Notes under the pieces: model-generated
The model's database searches: none
What the model saw: the letters and a program-made list of their open reading frames with translations, nothing else
What the model was told of the DNA's origin: nothing
Assembly (NCBI GenBank): GCA_026389585.1
Contig: JAPLHP010000079.1
Span: 1 to 37,614 of the forward strand
Source of the DNA: Chloroflexota bacterium
Lineage (GTDB): Bacteria > Chloroflexota > Dehalococcoidia > UBA2247 > RBG-13-53-26
Direction of reading: 5' to 3'
DNA length: 37,614 nucleotides
Shown here: in pieces, positions 1 through 6,586 of the stretch
Position numbering within the stretch: position 1 is the stretch's first letter
Layout: the number at the start of each line of letters is the position of its first letter
Position numbers and translations under genes: made by a program

Positions 1-476
1 TAAACTGAGTAGAAGATTATCTGGAAGATAGAGTTAAAGGCTACCAGCCCGGCGGAATACTCATTATCTGCTCCAGCTAGATCACACCACACAATGACCA
101 TGGCGATGCAGCGGGCCAGGCCTATCATGATCAGGCCTATCATGTATTCGGGCATCGGCCAGAGAAAGCCAAGAAAGAGAATCGCCAGGAAAAACATCAG
201 CAGCGGGCCGATGATCCAGTTCTGCACCAGAGAGAGCACCAGCACCCTCCAGTCACGGAAAACGCGGCCCATCTCCTCGTACCTCACCTTGGCCAGCGGC
301 GGGTACATCATCAAGATGAGGCCCACGGCAATCGGGATGGAGGTAGTGCCCACCTGGAGACGGGTGATCGTATCGGCCACCTTGGGAACGAAGTTGCCCA
401 GAGCCACGCCCAGGCCCATCGCCAGGAATATCCACAGCGTCAGGAAGCGGTCGAGTAGGGAAAGCCGCCTGACCAC
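1..476 (-). CDS. acr3: ACR3-family arsenite efflux permease (3' end outside window)
   Basis: The reverse-strand reading frame is open to base 1 and gives about 158 residues of a polytopic membrane protein. It carries ACR3 hallmarks: a start region like [19 protein letters not shown], the segment [19 protein letters not shown], and [19 protein letters not shown], whose cysteine (about residue 123) matches the conserved TM4 cysteine needed for As(III) transport in the family. ACR3 proteins expel arsenite using the membrane potential. It is the last visible gene of an ArsR-headed operon, which fits. The start is uncertain. The GTG at 476 is the only standard start near the family's usual N-terminus, and an in-frame ATG-GAA-TAA lies a little upstream. 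The missing part is the C-terminal half or more, past the window edge. Confidence 0.9.
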
Positions 477-558: not shown

Positions 559-1473
559 TCATGTTCTGCTGGCCAGAACCTCGTCAATAGCAGCTATCAA
601 ATCCGCTTCATTCAGCGGACCTTCAAGGCGCCAGGGCTCTATGTATCCTCCCCTTTTCTTACCAGTGATCACCAGGGTGGTCGGGAAGATATGCACATTG
701 AATTCTTCTACAGCGATATGCACATTGAGTTCTTCTTCAGCGTTGGGCTGCTGTTCACAATTGACCCGACGGAAAGAAACTGACTGATACTGTTGCTCCA
801 GATCCATGATGATGTCCAAGCCTGCCGGGTTTCCTTTCCGGAAGAACACGACCACGACTTTTTCATACTGCAGATCACTGTCAATATCGGTATCCAGCTT
901 GCTCTTTGGTGTGCCCCATAGCGAGACCGCCACTATCATGGCAATAACGATGATGGTTACCCCGAGTACAAATCTGGCCGACCCGCGCAGGCCCGGGATA
1001 TCCTTTCCTTTCCCCAGAAAGCGCCCCAGGCCCAAAGAGTTCGCCTTGGCCCGGTGATACAGCAACAGCGCTGCCACCAGCAGCATGGCAATATCGATCG
1101 CCAAAGCAGCAGGGTGGCTCAGTCGGACCAATCCTCCCAGGCAGTCACAGGCCTCGCCTACGTAGCGGAACAGGGCATAGATATTAGCCACAGTGAAGCT
1201 GGCGATTAGTGGAATACAGACTGCAGATGCAAATACGGAGAATATCCCCAGGACCAAGGAGCACCCGATGAATAGCTCCGCCCAGGGCAGCACGGTGCCA
1301 TAGAACCGGGCCAGGCCATCGGGCAGCATGCCATACTTCAGAACAGCATCAATGAATAAGTCTTGGTGCTGCAGCTTGCCAACGGCCGAGACAACAAAGA
1401 GCACGCCCAGAGCCAGGCGTAGAACGGTAACCGGCCATACATTCCCCGTAATCTGTCTCAGACTGATTTTCAT
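559..1473 (-). CDS. MauE/DoxX-type membrane protein fused to a cysteine-less thioredoxin-like domain
   Basis: The N-terminal half (about residues 15-140) has four hydrophobic helices of the MauE/DoxX type, with a CDC motif (C109, C111) before a short loop, as in MauE proteins linked to disulfide chemistry. After a fifth helix (about 168-187) comes a thioredoxin-like domain (about 200-304) with a conserved-looking FPTTLVITG strand holding the cis-proline position. The usual CxxC is replaced by FFRKGNPAG, so this domain cannot do standard disulfide exchange; C239 is its only cysteine. Residues 245-262 are a tandem 9-residue duplication. It lies between the MtrA-like gene and the arsenite pump, so a role in passing electrons or binding a partner in the redox relay is inferred. 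RBS candidate is a G-rich run just before ATG 1473. Confidence 0.75.
   Translation of the reverse strand: MKISLRQITGNVWPVTVLRLALGVLFVVSAVGKLQHQDLFIDAVLKYGMLPDGLARFYGTVLPWAELFIGCSLVLGIFSVFASAVCIPLIASFTVANIYALFRYVGEACDCLGGLVRLSHPAALAIDIAMLLVAALLLYHRAKANSLGLGRFLGKGKDIPGLRGSARFVLGVTIIVIAMIVAVSLWGTPKSKLDTDIDSDLQYEKVVVVFFRKGNPAGLDIIMDLEQQYQSVSFRRVNCEQQPNAEEELNVHIAVEEFNVHIFPTTLVITGKKRGGYIEPWRLEGPLNEADLIAAIDEVLASRT
689..742. repeat. 27-bp tandem duplication inside the MauE-thioredoxin gene
   Basis: Two adjacent 27-base units (689-715 and 716-742) differ at only two bases. They preserve frame and encode two near-identical 9-residue blocks (EELNVHI and EEFNVHI cores) in the thioredoxin-like domain. 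The high identity suggests a recent duplication. Confidence 0.85.
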
Positions 1474-1531: not shown

Positions 1532-2365
1532 TCATTTCAGAAGCTTAGCCAACGCCTGGCGGTCAGCGGCATACTCCGGCTGATCTAACAAAGGACAATC
1601 TTCAAGGCATACCTTACCCCTGACCAGCTCGATAGCAAAGGCAAGGCACGTCGGTTTGCCGCACTTCCTACAATTGGTCCTGGGCAGGAGCCTTTGGAGC
1701 GTAAACCCCATGCTCAAATTTGCCTTACCGGGTTCCATGCTCTGCTGGGGCTGGGCTAACCTGGACACGATTTTATGCAATATCGCTGGCTCCGGATATG
1801 CCCCCATGTCGTAGAGAGTATGGCCCATGAATATTACCGGGTTCTCCTGGTAACAGCTCCAGACCGCCTTCTCTATCACCTTGGGGCTAAGCCCAGGGGT
1901 CCTCACATCACTTTCTCCCGGCTGGCACAGGAGGTTGATGATACTGACGATCTGCTTGTTGAACCTCCCTATCACTTCCAGGGAGATATTGCTCAGATAT
2001 GGGGTCGGGGCTTCAGAGCCTATGATGTGCTTCTTGTCATCCACCCCGTTTTGCTTCAGTGCCAGCAACGATTCTCCCGGGAGGTGTCCGTTGGACTCCC
2101 TGCCACACAGAACGATATAGCGGATGTTCGGGTTGGCCACAATGTTGCAGATAACTTTCTCCAGCCCAATGTTTTCTGTTTGCAGCATACCCGATATGGC
2201 AGCGCCGGCATCCACACCGGCCATCACCATTTCGTTCAATTCAGAGGGTATGGCAGAATCAAAGGTGTCCAGAATAACGCAGACAGCCACCGGAGAGTAA
2301 TCATTACCCCTTACATAGCGGCCTTCTTCTGGAGGATAGCTATCCGCGGGCTTGACTTTGAGCAC
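1532..2365 (-). CDS. MtrA-like corrinoid-binding protein with C-terminal 4Fe-4S domain
   Basis: Residues about 10-145 match subunit A of tetrahydromethanopterin S-methyltransferase (MtrA). The block YIVLCGRESNGHLPGES contains His94, equivalent to the histidine that coordinates cobalt in MtrA, followed by ALKQNGVD and IIGSEAPTPYL. The C-terminus (about 230-260) has C232-x2-C235-x4-C240-x16-C257 followed by proline, the spacing of the 4Fe-4S domain of corrinoid/iron-sulfur proteins, which keeps the corrinoid in its Co(I) state. In methanogens MtrA is membrane-anchored. No transmembrane helix is visible here, so it should be soluble. The start is GTG 2365, with GAGGAG about 13 bases upstream. 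It sits between ccdA and the MauE-like gene. A methyl transfer or dealkylation step on a metalloid is inferred, not shown. Confidence 0.85.
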   Translation of the reverse strand: MLKVKPADSYPPEEGRYVRGNDYSPVAVCVILDTFDSAIPSELNEMVMAGVDAGAAISGMLQTENIGLEKVICNIVANPNIRYIVLCGRESNGHLPGESLLALKQNGVDDKKHIIGSEAPTPYLSNISLEVIGRFNKQIVSIINLLCQPGESDVRTPGLSPKVIEKAVWSCYQENPVIFMGHTLYDMGAYPEPAILHKIVSRLAQPQQSMEPGKANLSMGFTLQRLLPRTNCRKCGKPTCLAFAIELVRGKVCLEDCPLLDQPEYAADRQALAKLLK

Positions 2366-2382: not shown

Positions 2383-3072
2383 TTAGAACAGATAGACAAG
2401 CAAATAGACTCCTGCACCTATCAGGAACAGTCCTCCAACTTTCTTGGAGTAGTTGGAAAAATTGGCAATACCTTTGGACTCCAGTACCCTCTGGGCAAGG
2501 CCCGCCGATATGCCCGCGCCCAAAACCAGAATCCAGTGCCCCAGGGCATATGCCAGCAGCAGACCACCACTGTAGGCAATCCGCTTCTGGGTGGCAGCAA
2601 AGGTCAATATAACTGCCAGCACCGGTGTAGCACAGGGGGACGCCACGATGCCGAAGAAGAGCCCCATGAGAAAGGCTCCCAGCAATGCCTTCCGCTTCGG
2701 CATGAAACGCTGCGACATGCCAACGTTGAACTTGAATACACCAAGCAGAAACAGCCCCAAAATGATAGCCACAGGCGGGAGGACATACTTCCAGAATCCG
2801 CCGACATCCCCGAATAGTCTGCCTAAGGCTCCCGCGATGACACCGAGGATGGTGAAGGTTATGGTGAGGCCAAGGGTGAAGACCAGGGAATACTGAATGG
2901 CCTTCTTCGGCGAACCTTCTGAGTAGCCGCTGACAAAGCCAATGACCAGCGGGATCATGGCCAGGACACAGGGGCTGGCGCTGGAGATGACTCCGGCCAG
3001 AAAGCAGGCCGGAAAGGCCACCCAGCCATGATTCTGGACAATGTTGCCGAGGGTTTCCAGCCAAGTGTCCAC
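2383..3072 (-). CDS. ccdA: CcdA/DsbD-type transmembrane thiol-disulfide electron carrier
   Basis: This is a 229-residue protein with about six hydrophobic helices and two internally repeated halves. Each half has the cysteine-proline pattern of the family: SASPCVLAMIP (C35) and ASPCATPVLAV (C147). Such proteins carry reducing equivalents from cytoplasmic thioredoxin to extracytoplasmic thiol proteins. Its GTG start abuts the TAG stop of the preceding thioredoxin-like lipoprotein gene in the same frame. Those two lipoproteins are therefore its probable electron acceptors. The role in cytochrome c maturation is less likely here because no haem genes are nearby. Confidence 0.9.
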   Translation of the reverse strand: MDTWLETLGNIVQNHGWVAFPACFLAGVISSASPCVLAMIPLVIGFVSGYSEGSPKKAIQYSLVFTLGLTITFTILGVIAGALGRLFGDVGGFWKYVLPPVAIILGLFLLGVFKFNVGMSQRFMPKRKALLGAFLMGLFFGIVASPCATPVLAVILTFAATQKRIAYSGGLLLAYALGHWILVLGAGISAGLAQRVLESKGIANFSNYSKKVGGLFLIGAGVYLLVYLF

Positions 3073-3486
3073 CTACAACAATCCCAATTCCTCTAAATGA
3101 GCCATGATTTCCTCCTTGGGCCAGAATCCGACATGCCTGGTTACCTCCTGCCCGCTGGTGTCAAAGAAAATCTGCGTGGGAATCAGCGAGATAGCGTACC
3201 GGTTGGCAAGATCAGGCTGTTTGAATACGTCCACAAACGACATATTCAATCTGTCACCGTACTCTGCCGCCAGCTCCTCCAGGATTGGCTTCATCCTCTT
3301 ACATGGGATGCAGGTGGCCGCTCCGAACTCAGCTACGGTCGGTTTCCCGTTACTCAACGCCTCTTCCAGCGGAGTCGCGCCCACCCAGGCACTACTGTCA
3401 CCCTTGGAGCAAGCAACAGACAGCACCAGTGAGACCATAAGGGAAACCAACAGAATGAGACTTATGCTTGCTTTCGTTCTAATCAT
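3073..3486 (-). CDS. Thioredoxin-fold lipoprotein, CIPC active site
   Basis: The protein has 137 residues. A signal peptide ends in a lipobox-like LSVAC (C26), so it should be anchored outside the cytoplasmic membrane by a lipid. The mature part is a thioredoxin fold with TCIPCKRMKP (C59 and C62) and the cis-proline region SLIPTQIFFD. Lysine after the second cysteine and the KPTVAEFG strand fit the TlpA/thioredoxin families. It should exchange disulfides with the CcdA protein encoded immediately downstream. Start ATG 3486 follows the stop of the previous lipoprotein gene by two codons in the same frame. Confidence 0.88.
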   Translation of the reverse strand: MIRTKASISLILLVSLMVSLVLSVACSKGDSSAWVGATPLEEALSNGKPTVAEFGAATCIPCKRMKPILEELAAEYGDRLNMSFVDVFKQPDLANRYAISLIPTQIFFDTSGQEVTRHVGFWPKEEIMAHLEELGLL

Positions 3487-3492
3487 TACAGA

Positions 3493-3885
3493 CTACACTA
3501 CCCCCATCCCGGTTAACCGGTCGATCATCTCCTCTTTCGTGGATGCACCCACAATTCGTTTCACCTCTGCCCCGCTGCTGTCGAAAAACACCTGCGTTGG
3601 TGTCAGCATGATTCCGTATTGACTGGCAAGATACTTGTGCTCGCTTACGTCAATGGTCACGACATTGCACCTGCCATCGTACTCAACGGCCAGCTCCTCC
3701 AGGATGGGTTTTATGTTCTTGCACGCGCATTCTTGCCCGACGAAGCCGGCCAGTGTCGGCTTGCCACTGGCCAAGGCATCATCCAATATACTGCCAGAAG
3801 TGGTACTCTGAGAGCAGGCACTAACCACCGTCAGCAGCACTATCACGGCAACCGCCAGACCAAGGTATGCTTTCCTGTTGGCCAT
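3493..3885 (-). CDS. Thioredoxin-fold lipoprotein with CAC motif
   Basis: This 130-residue paralogue of the next gene has a signal peptide with lipobox VVSAC (C24) and a thioredoxin fold with PTQVFFDSSG. At the active site it reads QECACKNIKP, where the neighbour reads ATCIPCKRMKP. The CxxC is thus shortened to CxC (C53, C55). CxC motifs are known in some oxidoreductases and isomerases and have a different redox potential, so the pair may work in series. The start is ATG 3885, preceded by a G-rich stretch. The 200 bases upstream hold no convincing gene. Confidence 0.85.
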   Translation of the reverse strand: MANRKAYLGLAVAVIVLLTVVSACSQSTTSGSILDDALASGKPTLAGFVGQECACKNIKPILEELAVEYDGRCNVVTIDVSEHKYLASQYGIMLTPTQVFFDSSGAEVKRIVGASTKEEMIDRLTGMGVV

Positions 3886-4086
3886 TTCACCCCCCCTTTC
3901 CCCATCAAAAGTAGAATGCCCAAGCTAATCGATGCCCTCATCCGCGACGCAAATCCGAGCCGGTTGAGTATAGAGATCGTCTTTGTGCTTTCTTCTCGTC
4001 CATCCATTTCCTAATTGGGCAGGACGACTTGATCAACCACAACAGGATGAATCGCCGCTGTCACGAGCGGCTGTGCTTGATCCCCC

Positions 4087-4428
4087 TCAGGTGCAACCGC
4101 TTCCGGCAATGGCACTCTCAGACGCCTCTTGCTTTGCCTGTTCATCATGCGTCGAAGGCCGGTCAGGGCGCGCCTGGTACTTACGGATCTTCTCGATGAT
4201 CTCCTCATTTCGAGGCAGTCGCCCGCCCTCTCTGCGATTGGAGTAAACCACCCCGTCATCAACGTACACGTCAAACAGGCCGACGGGACCCTTCTTCAGA
4301 TCCGGCACAATGCCAAGCTCCTTTTCGATAGCAGTCGCCAAACTGGCGGCTGTAGCCAAGAAGCCTCACTCAGCACAGTAGACGATCTCGACCTTTGTTG
4401 GTTTCCGTACTTTGTCTGTCTTACTCAT
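4087..4428 (-). CDS. SelW-like (Rdx family) selenoprotein with in-frame UGA (Sec21)
   Basis: Reading from ATG 4428, which follows a strong AAGGAGG, gives EIVYCAE-UGA-GFLATAASL and continues for 113 residues to TGA 4087. The motif C18-x-x-U21 with strand-loop-helix context, followed by GPVGLFDVYVDD and GRLPRNEEIIEKI, matches the Rdx/SelW/SelT/SelH family, where CxxU or CxxC is the redox centre of a thioredoxin-like fold. Reading the UGA (4366-4368) as a stop would leave a 20-residue peptide and cut the conserved motif. A hairpin with bacterial SECIS features lies directly downstream of the UGA. A tool that treats UGA as a stop would call only the part after it (TTG 4359). The role is probably a selenol reductant or metalloid-binding partner in this operon. 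Sec synthesis genes are not in the window. Confidence 0.9.
4332..4352 (-). promoter_or_regulatory. Candidate bacterial SECIS hairpin
   Basis: In the mRNA, the hairpin begins 13 nt after the UGA. A lower CAG/CUG stem and one C-A mismatch support an upper CGCCA/UGGCG stem capped by a GUU loop, whose G is 23 nt past the UGA. A small apical loop with G in its first two bases at about this distance is the reported feature of bacterial SECIS elements, which recruit SelB with Sec-tRNA. Confidence 0.7.
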
Positions 4429-4492
4429 GACATTCCTCCTTCTGCAATTTCGCCTTGCGATTCAAACCGTCCCCATAGGAGAGCTTGCCTCC

Positions 4493-4759
4493 CTACTTTT
4501 TCTGGCTTCGTTCCTCTTTCTCCATGGCGTTGATAATCAATTGGGTTACCTCTGCCTTATTCGGCACCCGACCGGAGCAGACCAGTTCTTCGTTGATCAC
4601 CAGTCCTGGGGTGGCCAGGATAGGGTAACTCATGATCTTCTTGATGTCCTTCACCTCCTCAATGCTGGCGTCAATGGCCAGATCCTTCACCACTTCTCGC
4701 ACCACCTTCTCCAGCTTCTGGCAGTTGGCACATCCGGGCCCCAATGTCTTAATGTTCAC
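4493..4759 (-). CDS. Small thioredoxin-like redox protein (CANC)
   Basis: The 88-residue protein begins MNIKTLGPGCANC, with C10 and C13 in a CxxC at the N-terminal end of a thioredoxin fold. A cis-proline region ATPGLVINEE and a C-terminal helix follow. This is the pattern of the compact 'redox-active disulfide protein 2'/MTH895-type thioredoxins. They are often encoded next to COG0701 permeases and ArsR regulators, as here. It is cytoplasmic with no signal peptide. It may hand thiol-bound metalloid or electrons to the permease; that step is inferred. Confidence 0.88.
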   Translation of the reverse strand: MNIKTLGPGCANCQKLEKVVREVVKDLAIDASIEEVKDIKKIMSYPILATPGLVINEELVCSGRVPNKAEVTQLIINAMEKEERSQKK

Positions 4760-4835: not shown

Positions 4836-5924
4836 TTACAGAATGGCATTAAAGAGGTAGCCGATGATTATTATGCCTATCGCTACTACTCCGACAAATA
4901 CGGCAATGAGTTGCCATTTAAGCACCTTGCGCAAGATCATTGTCTCTGGAAGCGAAAGCCCAATGACGGCCATCATGAAGGCGAGCGCTGTCCCCAGTGC
5001 CGCGCCTTTCTCTATGAGCGCCTGCACCACCGGCATAATACCTGCTGCATTGGAATACATGGGCACACCAATCACCACGGCTGCGGGTACGCTCCACCAC
5101 GCCCCTTTACCCATAAACCTGGCCAGAACACCTTCCGGCACATACCCGTGAATGGCAGCGCCAACGCCGATTCCGATCAGAACGTATGGCCAGACCTTGC
5201 TGACAATATCACGCACGGCGTTCAGGCCGTAGCGTATCCTGTCCTCAAGTGTCATGTTTGGTGCTATGGACGAGGCTTGAGCCATCTGGATTTCAGAAAC
5301 CCAGCCCTCGATGTACTTTTCCATCTTGAGTTTGCCTATTACCCATCCGGCAATGATAGCTATGGCCATCCCGGTAGCCACATAGATCAGACCAATGCGG
5401 AAGCCGAACAATCCAATGAGTAGAACCAGGGCCACCTCATTGATCATTGGAGAGGCGATCAGGAAGGTGAATGTAACGCCCAGAGGGACTCCCGCCTCCA
5501 CAAAGCCAATGAAGAGCGGGACAGCCGAGCAGGAACAGAACGGTGTCACTACGCCTAGCCCACCGGCAAGCACGTTGCCCACAATCTGACGTTTTCCTGC
5601 TAGAATTTGGCGTGTTCGTTCCGGAGTGAAAAAGGACCTGATGATTCCTACCACGAGGACGACCATGCCCAAGAGGAGTATTACTTTCGGTGCATCAAAC
5701 AGAAAGAAGGCGACACTGCTGCCGAGATGGCTTGAAGGTTCTAGCCTGAATACGTCATACGTAAGGAAATTAGCCACCCTCTGCAGCATGAGGTAGACGA
5801 ATAGCCATACGGCAAACCCGATACCAAGCTTGATGAACAGCTTGGCCCTGCTCCCTTTTTGCCTGTTGGCACTCAATGGAACGGAAGGGGCGGATTCACA
5901 ATTGCATCCATCACCTTGTTTCAT
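4836..5924 (-). CDS. COG0701 permease (ArsP/SaoE-like metal or organometalloid exporter)
   Basis: The protein has 362 residues with eight or more hydrophobic helices. The family signature is clear: VTPFCSCSAVPLFIGFVEAG (C130, C132), FLIASPMINEVALVLL, and the second half VWPYVLIGIGVGAAIHG with VPMYSNAAGIMPV. The N-terminus adds GDGCNCESA (C7, C9), a further possible metal-binding pair. Members of this family include ArsP, which exports trivalent organoarsenicals, and Cu/Zn exporters, so the substrate cannot be read from sequence. It is the first structural gene after arsR. With ACR3 at the far end, the operon has two separate efflux routes. Confidence 0.9.
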   Translation of the reverse strand: MKQGDGCNCESAPSVPLSANRQKGSRAKLFIKLGIGFAVWLFVYLMLQRVANFLTYDVFRLEPSSHLGSSVAFFLFDAPKVILLLGMVVLVVGIIRSFFTPERTRQILAGKRQIVGNVLAGGLGVVTPFCSCSAVPLFIGFVEAGVPLGVTFTFLIASPMINEVALVLLIGLFGFRIGLIYVATGMAIAIIAGWVIGKLKMEKYIEGWVSEIQMAQASSIAPNMTLEDRIRYGLNAVRDIVSKVWPYVLIGIGVGAAIHGYVPEGVLARFMGKGAWWSVPAAVVIGVPMYSNAAGIMPVVQALIEKGAALGTALAFMMAVIGLSLPETMILRKVLKWQLIAVFVGVVAIGIIIIGYLFNAIL

Positions 5925-5992
5925 TATATTTAGACCTCGTTGAATTCTTCCCTAGATGCGCAACAACGCATAAGTAAGATAAAAAGAGGGAA

Positions 5993-6355
5993 CTATGCTA
6001 CTGCGCACTCCCGTACGCACCCAGCACCAACACGCCTGGCACTCTTGAGCCGCTTCCTGTCCTGCGCCACCAAATCATTGCCCACAAGTCCTTCCCTCAC
6101 AGCCTCTATCAGATTGGCGTAATAGGGCTTTATTCCCTCTTTATCTATCGAGTACAACGACCACAGACCGTCTTTCCTCAGCTTGAGAAAGCCGGCGTCG
6201 CGCAGGATACTGAGGTTGCGCGAAGCCCTGGTCTGAGAGATCTCCAGCGCCTGTATCACCTCGCAGACGCAGCACTCCCTCTCCAGCAACAGGTTCAGTA
6301 TCCTCAGCCGGGTATCGTCCGACAACGCCTTCATCGCTTTGACCATTTCATGCAT
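5993..6355 (-). CDS. arsR: ArsR-family metalloid-responsive repressor
   Basis: The protein has 120 residues and a winged helix: MKALSDDTRLRILNLLLE, a recognition helix near QTRASRNLSILRDAG, and a wing LKLRKDGLWSLYSI. The segment ERECCVCEVIQ (C28, C29, C31) matches the As(III)-binding cysteines of the alpha-3 type sensors. A second cysteine pair at the C-terminus (C113, C117) may add a ligand. Such repressors leave DNA on binding arsenite or related species. The gene heads the whole minus-strand operon, and a dyad just upstream is a plausible operator, so autoregulation of the operon is likely. Confidence 0.92.
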   Translation of the reverse strand: MHEMVKAMKALSDDTRLRILNLLLERECCVCEVIQALEISQTRASRNLSILRDAGFLKLRKDGLWSLYSIDKEGIKPYYANLIEAVREGLVGNDLVAQDRKRLKSARRVGAGCVRECAVA

Positions 6356-6370
6356 CTTGAAACCTCATGT

Positions 6371-6392
6371 TATATGCGCACCTACGCCTATA
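6371..6392. promoter_or_regulatory. Dyad upstream of arsR, candidate ArsR operator
   Basis: The sequence has the symmetric form TATA-N-GCG-N6-CGC-N-TATA, 22 bp long, starting 15 bp upstream of the arsR start codon. ArsR dimers bind imperfect inverted repeats in this position. No clear -10/-35 pair could be fixed. Confidence 0.45.
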
Positions 6393-6439
6393 GTCTATCA
6401 CAGCACTGCATCTCCATCAAACAGCCGCGCTGTTACAGC

Positions 6440-6586
6440 CTAGTGCCTAGTTGCAGAAATAGGCGTCATTCGCCTTGTGAGGGGAGACCCTTCGGCTTCG
6501 CTCAGGGTGACATATTGCCCACTGTGTCATTCTGAGCAAAGCGAAAAATCTCGATTGCTACGCTTACTTGTGCAACCAGGCACTAG
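6440..6586. mobile_element. MITE-like element, 147 bp, with terminal inverted repeats
   Basis: The ends read CTAGTGCCTAGTTGCA and, inverted, CTAGTGCCTGGTTGCA, with one mismatch. CTAG at each end could be a 4-bp target duplication. Inside are a second imperfect inverted pair around GCTCAGGGTGACA and its partner TGTCATTCTGAGC, and a small hairpin AGGCG-TCATT-CGCCT (6461-6475). There is no coding capacity, so a transposase elsewhere would have to act on it. Confidence 0.6.

Follow-up and report, generated by a model that had tools for sequence, protein, structure and literature searches.

Bacterial SELENOW-like (Rdx) selenoproteins (PF10262, TIGR02174) have a thioredoxin-like Rdx fold with a CxxU motif where helix 1 begins, a SECIS element just downstream of the selenocysteine (Sec) codon, and Cys homologues. 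Among the Sec families of the Sargasso Sea set, SelW-like proteins ranked first in abundance (PMC1088965). In the 2026 review and inventory of prokaryotic selenoproteins, SELENOW-like proteins have one Sec only, and none of the several other double or tail-Sec families listed there has an Rdx domain (PMC13188914). The window (the whole 37,614-nucleotide stretch of DNA analysed here, a contig of a Chloroflexota bacterium) encodes a protein that has all of the SELENOW-like features in common and differs in a C-terminal extension, with a probable second Sec and its own SECIS, and in its location in an ars operon. Comparison of sequences (conserved frame, Sec/Cys exchange at the first site, hairpins at both sites, Sec machinery and ars neighbourhood) leads us to read the gene, with a probability of roughly 0.87, as encoding a functional selenoprotein of the SelW (Rdx) family, 131 residues long, with selenocysteines at UGA codons 21 and 114. 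The SelW/Rdx family itself is known; the double-Sec form appears to be new. UXX-star and other tail-Sec or double selenoproteins (NF041114, NF041211, NF041212, NF047649, MbdU NF045648, SaoC NF040734) likewise have Sec or Cys in a C-terminal or nearly C-terminal position and a predicted metal(loid) role, but their domain is different, and the window protein gave no match to these family models at the thresholds used.

Table 1. Features of the SelW-like gene and its neighbours in the window.
Feature	Position	Strand	Remarks
SelW-like gene, predicted double selenoprotein	4033..4428	(-)	131 codons + stop; ATG 4428; UGA stop 4035-4033
Ribosome-binding site	4435..4441	(-)	AAGGAGG, direct reading; 6 nt upstream of ATG
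Rdx / SelW thioredoxin-like domain (PF10262)	4180..4395	(-)	Spans first UGA
First Sec codon UGA (site 1)	4366..4368	(-)	Codon 21, CxxU motif (YCAEU); almost certainly Sec
SECIS 1 hairpin	4332..4352	(-)	Apical G at +23 (position 4343)
Second in-frame UGA (site 2)	4087..4089	(-)	Codon 114, GSGCT-U-GG; very probably Sec; stop in the earlier note
SECIS 2 hairpin	4054..4071	(-)	GCCGCT-CGTGAC-AGCGGC; loop start +22, G at +23 (position 4064)
True stop	4033..4035	(-)	UGA in window
ArsR/SmtB-family metalloregulator	5993..6355	(-)	NF033788, 84 bits vs 55
ArsP_1 permease	4836..5924	(-)	
Trx_3, MTH895/ArsE-family thioredoxin-like protein	4493..4759	(-)	TIGR00412 above cut-off
Lipoprotein-like thioredoxin	3493..3885	(-)	CAC motif
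Thioredoxin	3073..3486	(-)	CIPC
CcdA/DsbD-type membrane electron carrier	2383..3072	(-)	
MtrA-like + Fe-S domain protein	1532..2365	(-)	
MauE/DoxX membrane protein	559..1473	(-)	
ACR3 arsenite efflux transporter	3..476	(-)	Cut by contig end; best match for N-terminal half

An earlier note, made from the letters of the window, had placed a SelW-like selenoprotein gene at 4087-4428 and given no strand. The feature is real and lies on the minus strand, where the frame from the ATG runs MSKTDKVRKPTKVEIVYCAE-UGA-GFLATAASL...; the plus strand of 4087-4428 is meaningless in that frame. The ribosome-binding site and ATG that it described are present, and its identification of YCAE-UGA-GFL as the CxxU motif of Rdx proteins holds, since PF10262 matches through the UGA, at 46 bits where the cut-off is 22.6, and a search of the raw genome gives 39.4 bits with '1 TGA' within the match. 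TIGR02174 is also matched (40.3 bits, cut-off 34.2). For the 92 codons of homology claimed beyond the UGA, we count 92 sense codons between the first and the second in-frame UGA. Translation with table 11 gives a 90-residue ORF from TTG 4359 that begins past the CxxU site, and the 23 codons predicted to escape gene callers are indeed lost. An AlphaFold2 model of the window protein, calculated with Cys in place of Sec, predicts the Rdx core with confidence (residues about 11-85, pLDDT about 90) and leaves the C-terminal tail disordered. Foldseek and sequence searches retrieve the SelW-family structures 3dex, 2fa8, 2oka, 2obk, 2p0g, 2ojl and mouse SelW (2npb), all but 2ojl among the top Foldseek matches. 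By sequence and by fold the window protein is thus a member of the SelW/Rdx family.

Site 1 was compared with Rdx sequences of the same class and phylum, comprising 26 distinct sequences with TGC or TGT at this codon and 23 with TGA, one of which (L184) is a chance frame match. Cys therefore stands in place of the first UGA in homologues, and the homologues begin before the UGA; a start after it is what the earlier note had named as evidence against its proposal. Bacterial SECIS elements are described as a hairpin just past the UGA with a G in a small apical loop (PMC1088965), and the hairpins behind both UGAs of the window gene have this form. SECIS 1 (CAG-C-CGCCA-GTT-TGGCG-A-CTG) has its apical G 23 nt from the UGA, as previously claimed. 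G is found at +23 in 22/23 of the distinct Sec sequences, and a stem of at least 6 bp surrounds this position in 20 of the 23, compared with 4/26 of the Cys sequences. Across the 19 Sec sequences that were aligned the G is invariant and the helix covariation score lies above 500/500 shuffles and every slid control. The folding energies are unremarkable by themselves (z of -1.2 for the site 1 hairpin, -1.3 for the other), and it is position, conservation and gene content that carry the case. As these alignments have it, the hairpin accompanies Sec rather than Cys, and the first UGA almost certainly encodes Sec. The draft genome to which the contig belongs is fragmented (103 contigs), which would suit a pseudogene or a sequencing or assembly artefact in which a Cys gene has acquired the UGA as a nonsense error; this is extremely improbable and is refuted by recurrence, the UGA being found at the same codon, with SECIS hairpins, in many independent genomes, next to which stand the full sel gene set, the good ribosome-binding site and the intact operon.

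The genome of the window holds the genes for which the earlier note had suggested looking (selA, selB, selC and selD): selA (554 bits), selB (358 bits) and selD (389 bits) lie on contig C65, and tRNA-Sec (74 bits, anticodon TCA, also called by ARAGORN) on C98. selA is also present in 6/6 of the other genomes with a double-UGA SelW gene. A selA match was not found in G023, an 81% complete genome whose SelW has one Sec UGA at site 1 and no second Sec. Two further in-frame UGAs were seen on C65. selD (L162, about 5490-6470) contains one (GAG-U-ASK), followed by a strong hairpin, so that SelD of this genome is itself probably a selenoprotein. Beside selD, a DsrE/YedF-like frame (L129) is joined through a UGA to a DUF3343-like frame (KVISL-UGA-GGPARP-METAQ); here the UGA probably terminates the first frame in the ordinary way, and a new start follows.

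The second in-frame UGA is where the earlier note ended the gene. In the window the frame continues past it as GSGCT-UGA-GGSSTAARDSGDSSCCG-UGA, giving a tail of the form GC-T-U-G...SSCCG. The UGA is kept in seven genomes of three families: that of the window, G008 and G001 (same family, another genus), G009 and G007 (a third genus there), and G075 and G174 (two other families). Four relatives have long tails, ESGCT-UGA-GCTSEAARDSGNSSCCG-UGA in G008, ASGCS-UGA-GCGSEAARDSGDSSCCG-TAG in G001, DAT-UGA-GDPSGRNSCCG-TAA in G075 and GGT-UGA-RCSSSRNSCCE-TAA in G174. Long tails thus terminate in SCCG or SCCE, and the codon corresponding to window position 4035-4033 is UGA, TAG, TAA and TAA, respectively. 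The tails of G009 (CGCG-UGA-GS-UGA) and G007 (CGCG-UGA-SS-TAG, from UGA-AGC-TCA-TAG) are short. In 7/7 genomes an unbroken hairpin of 6-7 bp follows the second UGA, its loop starting at exactly +22 with G at +23. Two unrelated sequences form it, GCCGCT-CGTGAY-AGCGGY in the first family and CGCAAC-AGTT-GTTGCG in the other two, with loops of 6 and 4 nt (the seven were compared ungapped, by position). Such a hairpin at such a place occurs behind 5/676 ORF-ending UGAs, a control set that may contain some SelW site 2 UGAs, and at about 0.4% of random positions. Because members within one family share ancestry, these seven cases count as fewer than seven independent events.

Constraint on the hairpin can be followed among the window, G008 and G001. 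The 18 nt of SECIS 2 show zero changes, even synonymous ones, whereas the Rdx core differs by 19-24 synonymous changes per pair; in the codons past the hairpin (SSCCG) the three pairs together show nine synonymous and two non-synonymous changes. In G007 the hairpin sits beyond the TAG stop with its spacing from the second UGA unchanged, which we read as constraint on RNA, not protein. The second UGA could instead be a plain stop, the first alone encoding Sec and the hairpin behind serving as a 3' regulatory or terminator-like element. UGA is read as a stop by default, and the TAG two codons on in G007 means that read-through there would add only three residues, but the hairpin has no T-run, its spacing from the UGA is fixed and its G has the same position as at site 1. 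Translation beyond the UGA is further favoured by the near synonymous-only drift of SSCCG, by true stops that change between UGA, TAG and TAA, and by Cys in the corresponding tail of G005 (GCGCSG), the only Cys-type tail at site 2, in a protein with Sec at site 1 only. We regard termination at this codon as quite unlikely and conclude from the comparison that site 2 very probably encodes Sec. The earlier proposal of a SelW-like selenoprotein with a Sec UGA and SECIS is supported and incomplete; its end point at 4087 is wrong, as that UGA is conserved with a hairpin and with read-through in relatives. By taking it as a stop, the note missed the probable second Sec, the second SECIS and about 18 C-terminal residues.

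The third UGA (4035-4033) was considered as a third Sec codon and rejected, since relatives have UGA, TAG, TAA and TAA there and the fold downstream has no small loop where a SECIS would place one. Apparent tails past the stop in G070 and G023 show no tail similarity and were treated as ordinary stops. Across 60 genomes, the exact SECIS 2 pattern occurs in five SelW tails only; other matches have 2-3 mismatches, and a reversed-pattern control gives similar numbers. One match, in G002, was set aside as no SelW frame surrounds it. Of several hundred genomes belonging to one class, seven were found to have the double-Sec SelW, and a phylum-wide search gave no further member among the other genomes sampled. 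A scan of genome contigs yielded for the most part remote homologues, with 22-36% identity, and no close relative.

In the mechanism we propose, SelB and tRNA-Sec would decode UGA 21 in the CxxU active site and UGA 114 in the C-terminal tail (GC-x-U-G), each helped by its own separate hairpin with apical G at +23, and translation would end at the third UGA to give 131 residues. Mammalian thioredoxin reductase combines a second redox centre with a flexible C-terminal tail (GCUG) in which Cys and Sec are neighbours. The tail of the window protein is alike in layout only; the folds are unrelated. U-x-x-stop tails like those of UXX-star occur in G007 and G009 only, whereas the window tail ends in SSCCG and places Sec114 about 18 residues before the C-terminus. 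Arsenicals may be bound or reduced by a dithiol-selenolate pair, made up of the CxxU in the folded domain and the flexible Cys/Sec-rich tail; in this model the protein would serve an operon for detoxification of arsenic or organoarsenicals, either relaying electrons or carrying bound metalloid. The thioredoxins, the ArsE-like one among them, and CcdA would supply the electrons, and the product would leave by ACR3 or the ArsP permease.

The operon was also missed by the earlier note. An ArsR-type regulator with ACR3 or ArsB efflux was taken to mark an arsenic operon, and the SelW gene lies within a tight minus-strand run from an ArsR-type regulator through to ACR3. Parts of this gene order are kept in G009, G007 and G008. 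The runs are ArsR, ArsP, Trx_3, SelW, an arsenate-reductase-like protein, an ArsF-like protein, CcdA and ACR3 in G174; ArsR, SelW, an ArsC-like protein and ACR3 in G023 (L160 303-2516); ArsR, ArsP, Trx_3, SelW, an ArsC-like protein and MauE in G005 (these three recognised by eye from sequence); and ArsP, Trx_3, SelW, an ArsF-family protein, CcdA and ACR3 in G075 (this one and G009 partly by family search). Known ArsEFG/ACR3/ArsP operons have in common the ArsE-family Trx_3, the ArsF-family protein (G075), a DsbD-like membrane protein, ACR3 and ArsP_1; they differ in that the window CcdA falls under the ArsG cut-off (53.5 against 200) and a selenoprotein is added.

By association with these genes, a role in arsenic metabolism is likely for the SelW-like protein. 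The substrates of ArsR-family repressors and ArsP_1 permeases are diverse, and there is weak similarity to proteins of other Sec-rich operons, with models below cut-off (TsoR 34.4 against 115, TsoB 50.8 against 805, SaoE 134 against 325 bits). A real selenoprotein whose operon serves another toxic element (e.g. Hg, Sb, organometals) or general redox balance is on this account conceivable, yet we consider it unlikely, given ACR3 beside the SelW gene (N-terminal half in the window; full-length TIGR00832, 462 bits, in G009) and the ArsC-like, ArsE-family and ArsF-family genes that adjoin it. For SelW together with arsenic in bacteria, no report was found in the open-licence literature. We favour, with some reserve, a double-Sec SelW subfamily, so far of one bacterial class, whose tail Sec would take part in arsenical detoxification and in which the frame behind that Sec is free to shorten or extend while the SECIS distance stays fixed even past a stop. 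A SelW variant established in ars operons, its Cys-rich tail bearing an additional Sec, would point to a testable substrate class, arsenicals. Ordinary gene callers cut such proteins at both ends, missing the N-terminal active site as well as the Sec in the tail, and paired SECIS elements, one of them kept past a stop codon, amount to a natural experiment that separates RNA from protein constraint.

Two neighbours have unusual features of their own. In the protein encoded at 1532-2365, an MtrA-like domain (tetrahydromethanopterin S-methyltransferase subunit A) is fused to an Fe-S domain, which is odd for a bacterial arsenic operon; perhaps it transfers methyl groups to or from arsenic. In the thioredoxin-like lipoprotein, CAC (C-x-C) replaces CxxC, and its ECACK motif is also kept in G008 (L157 2451-2849).
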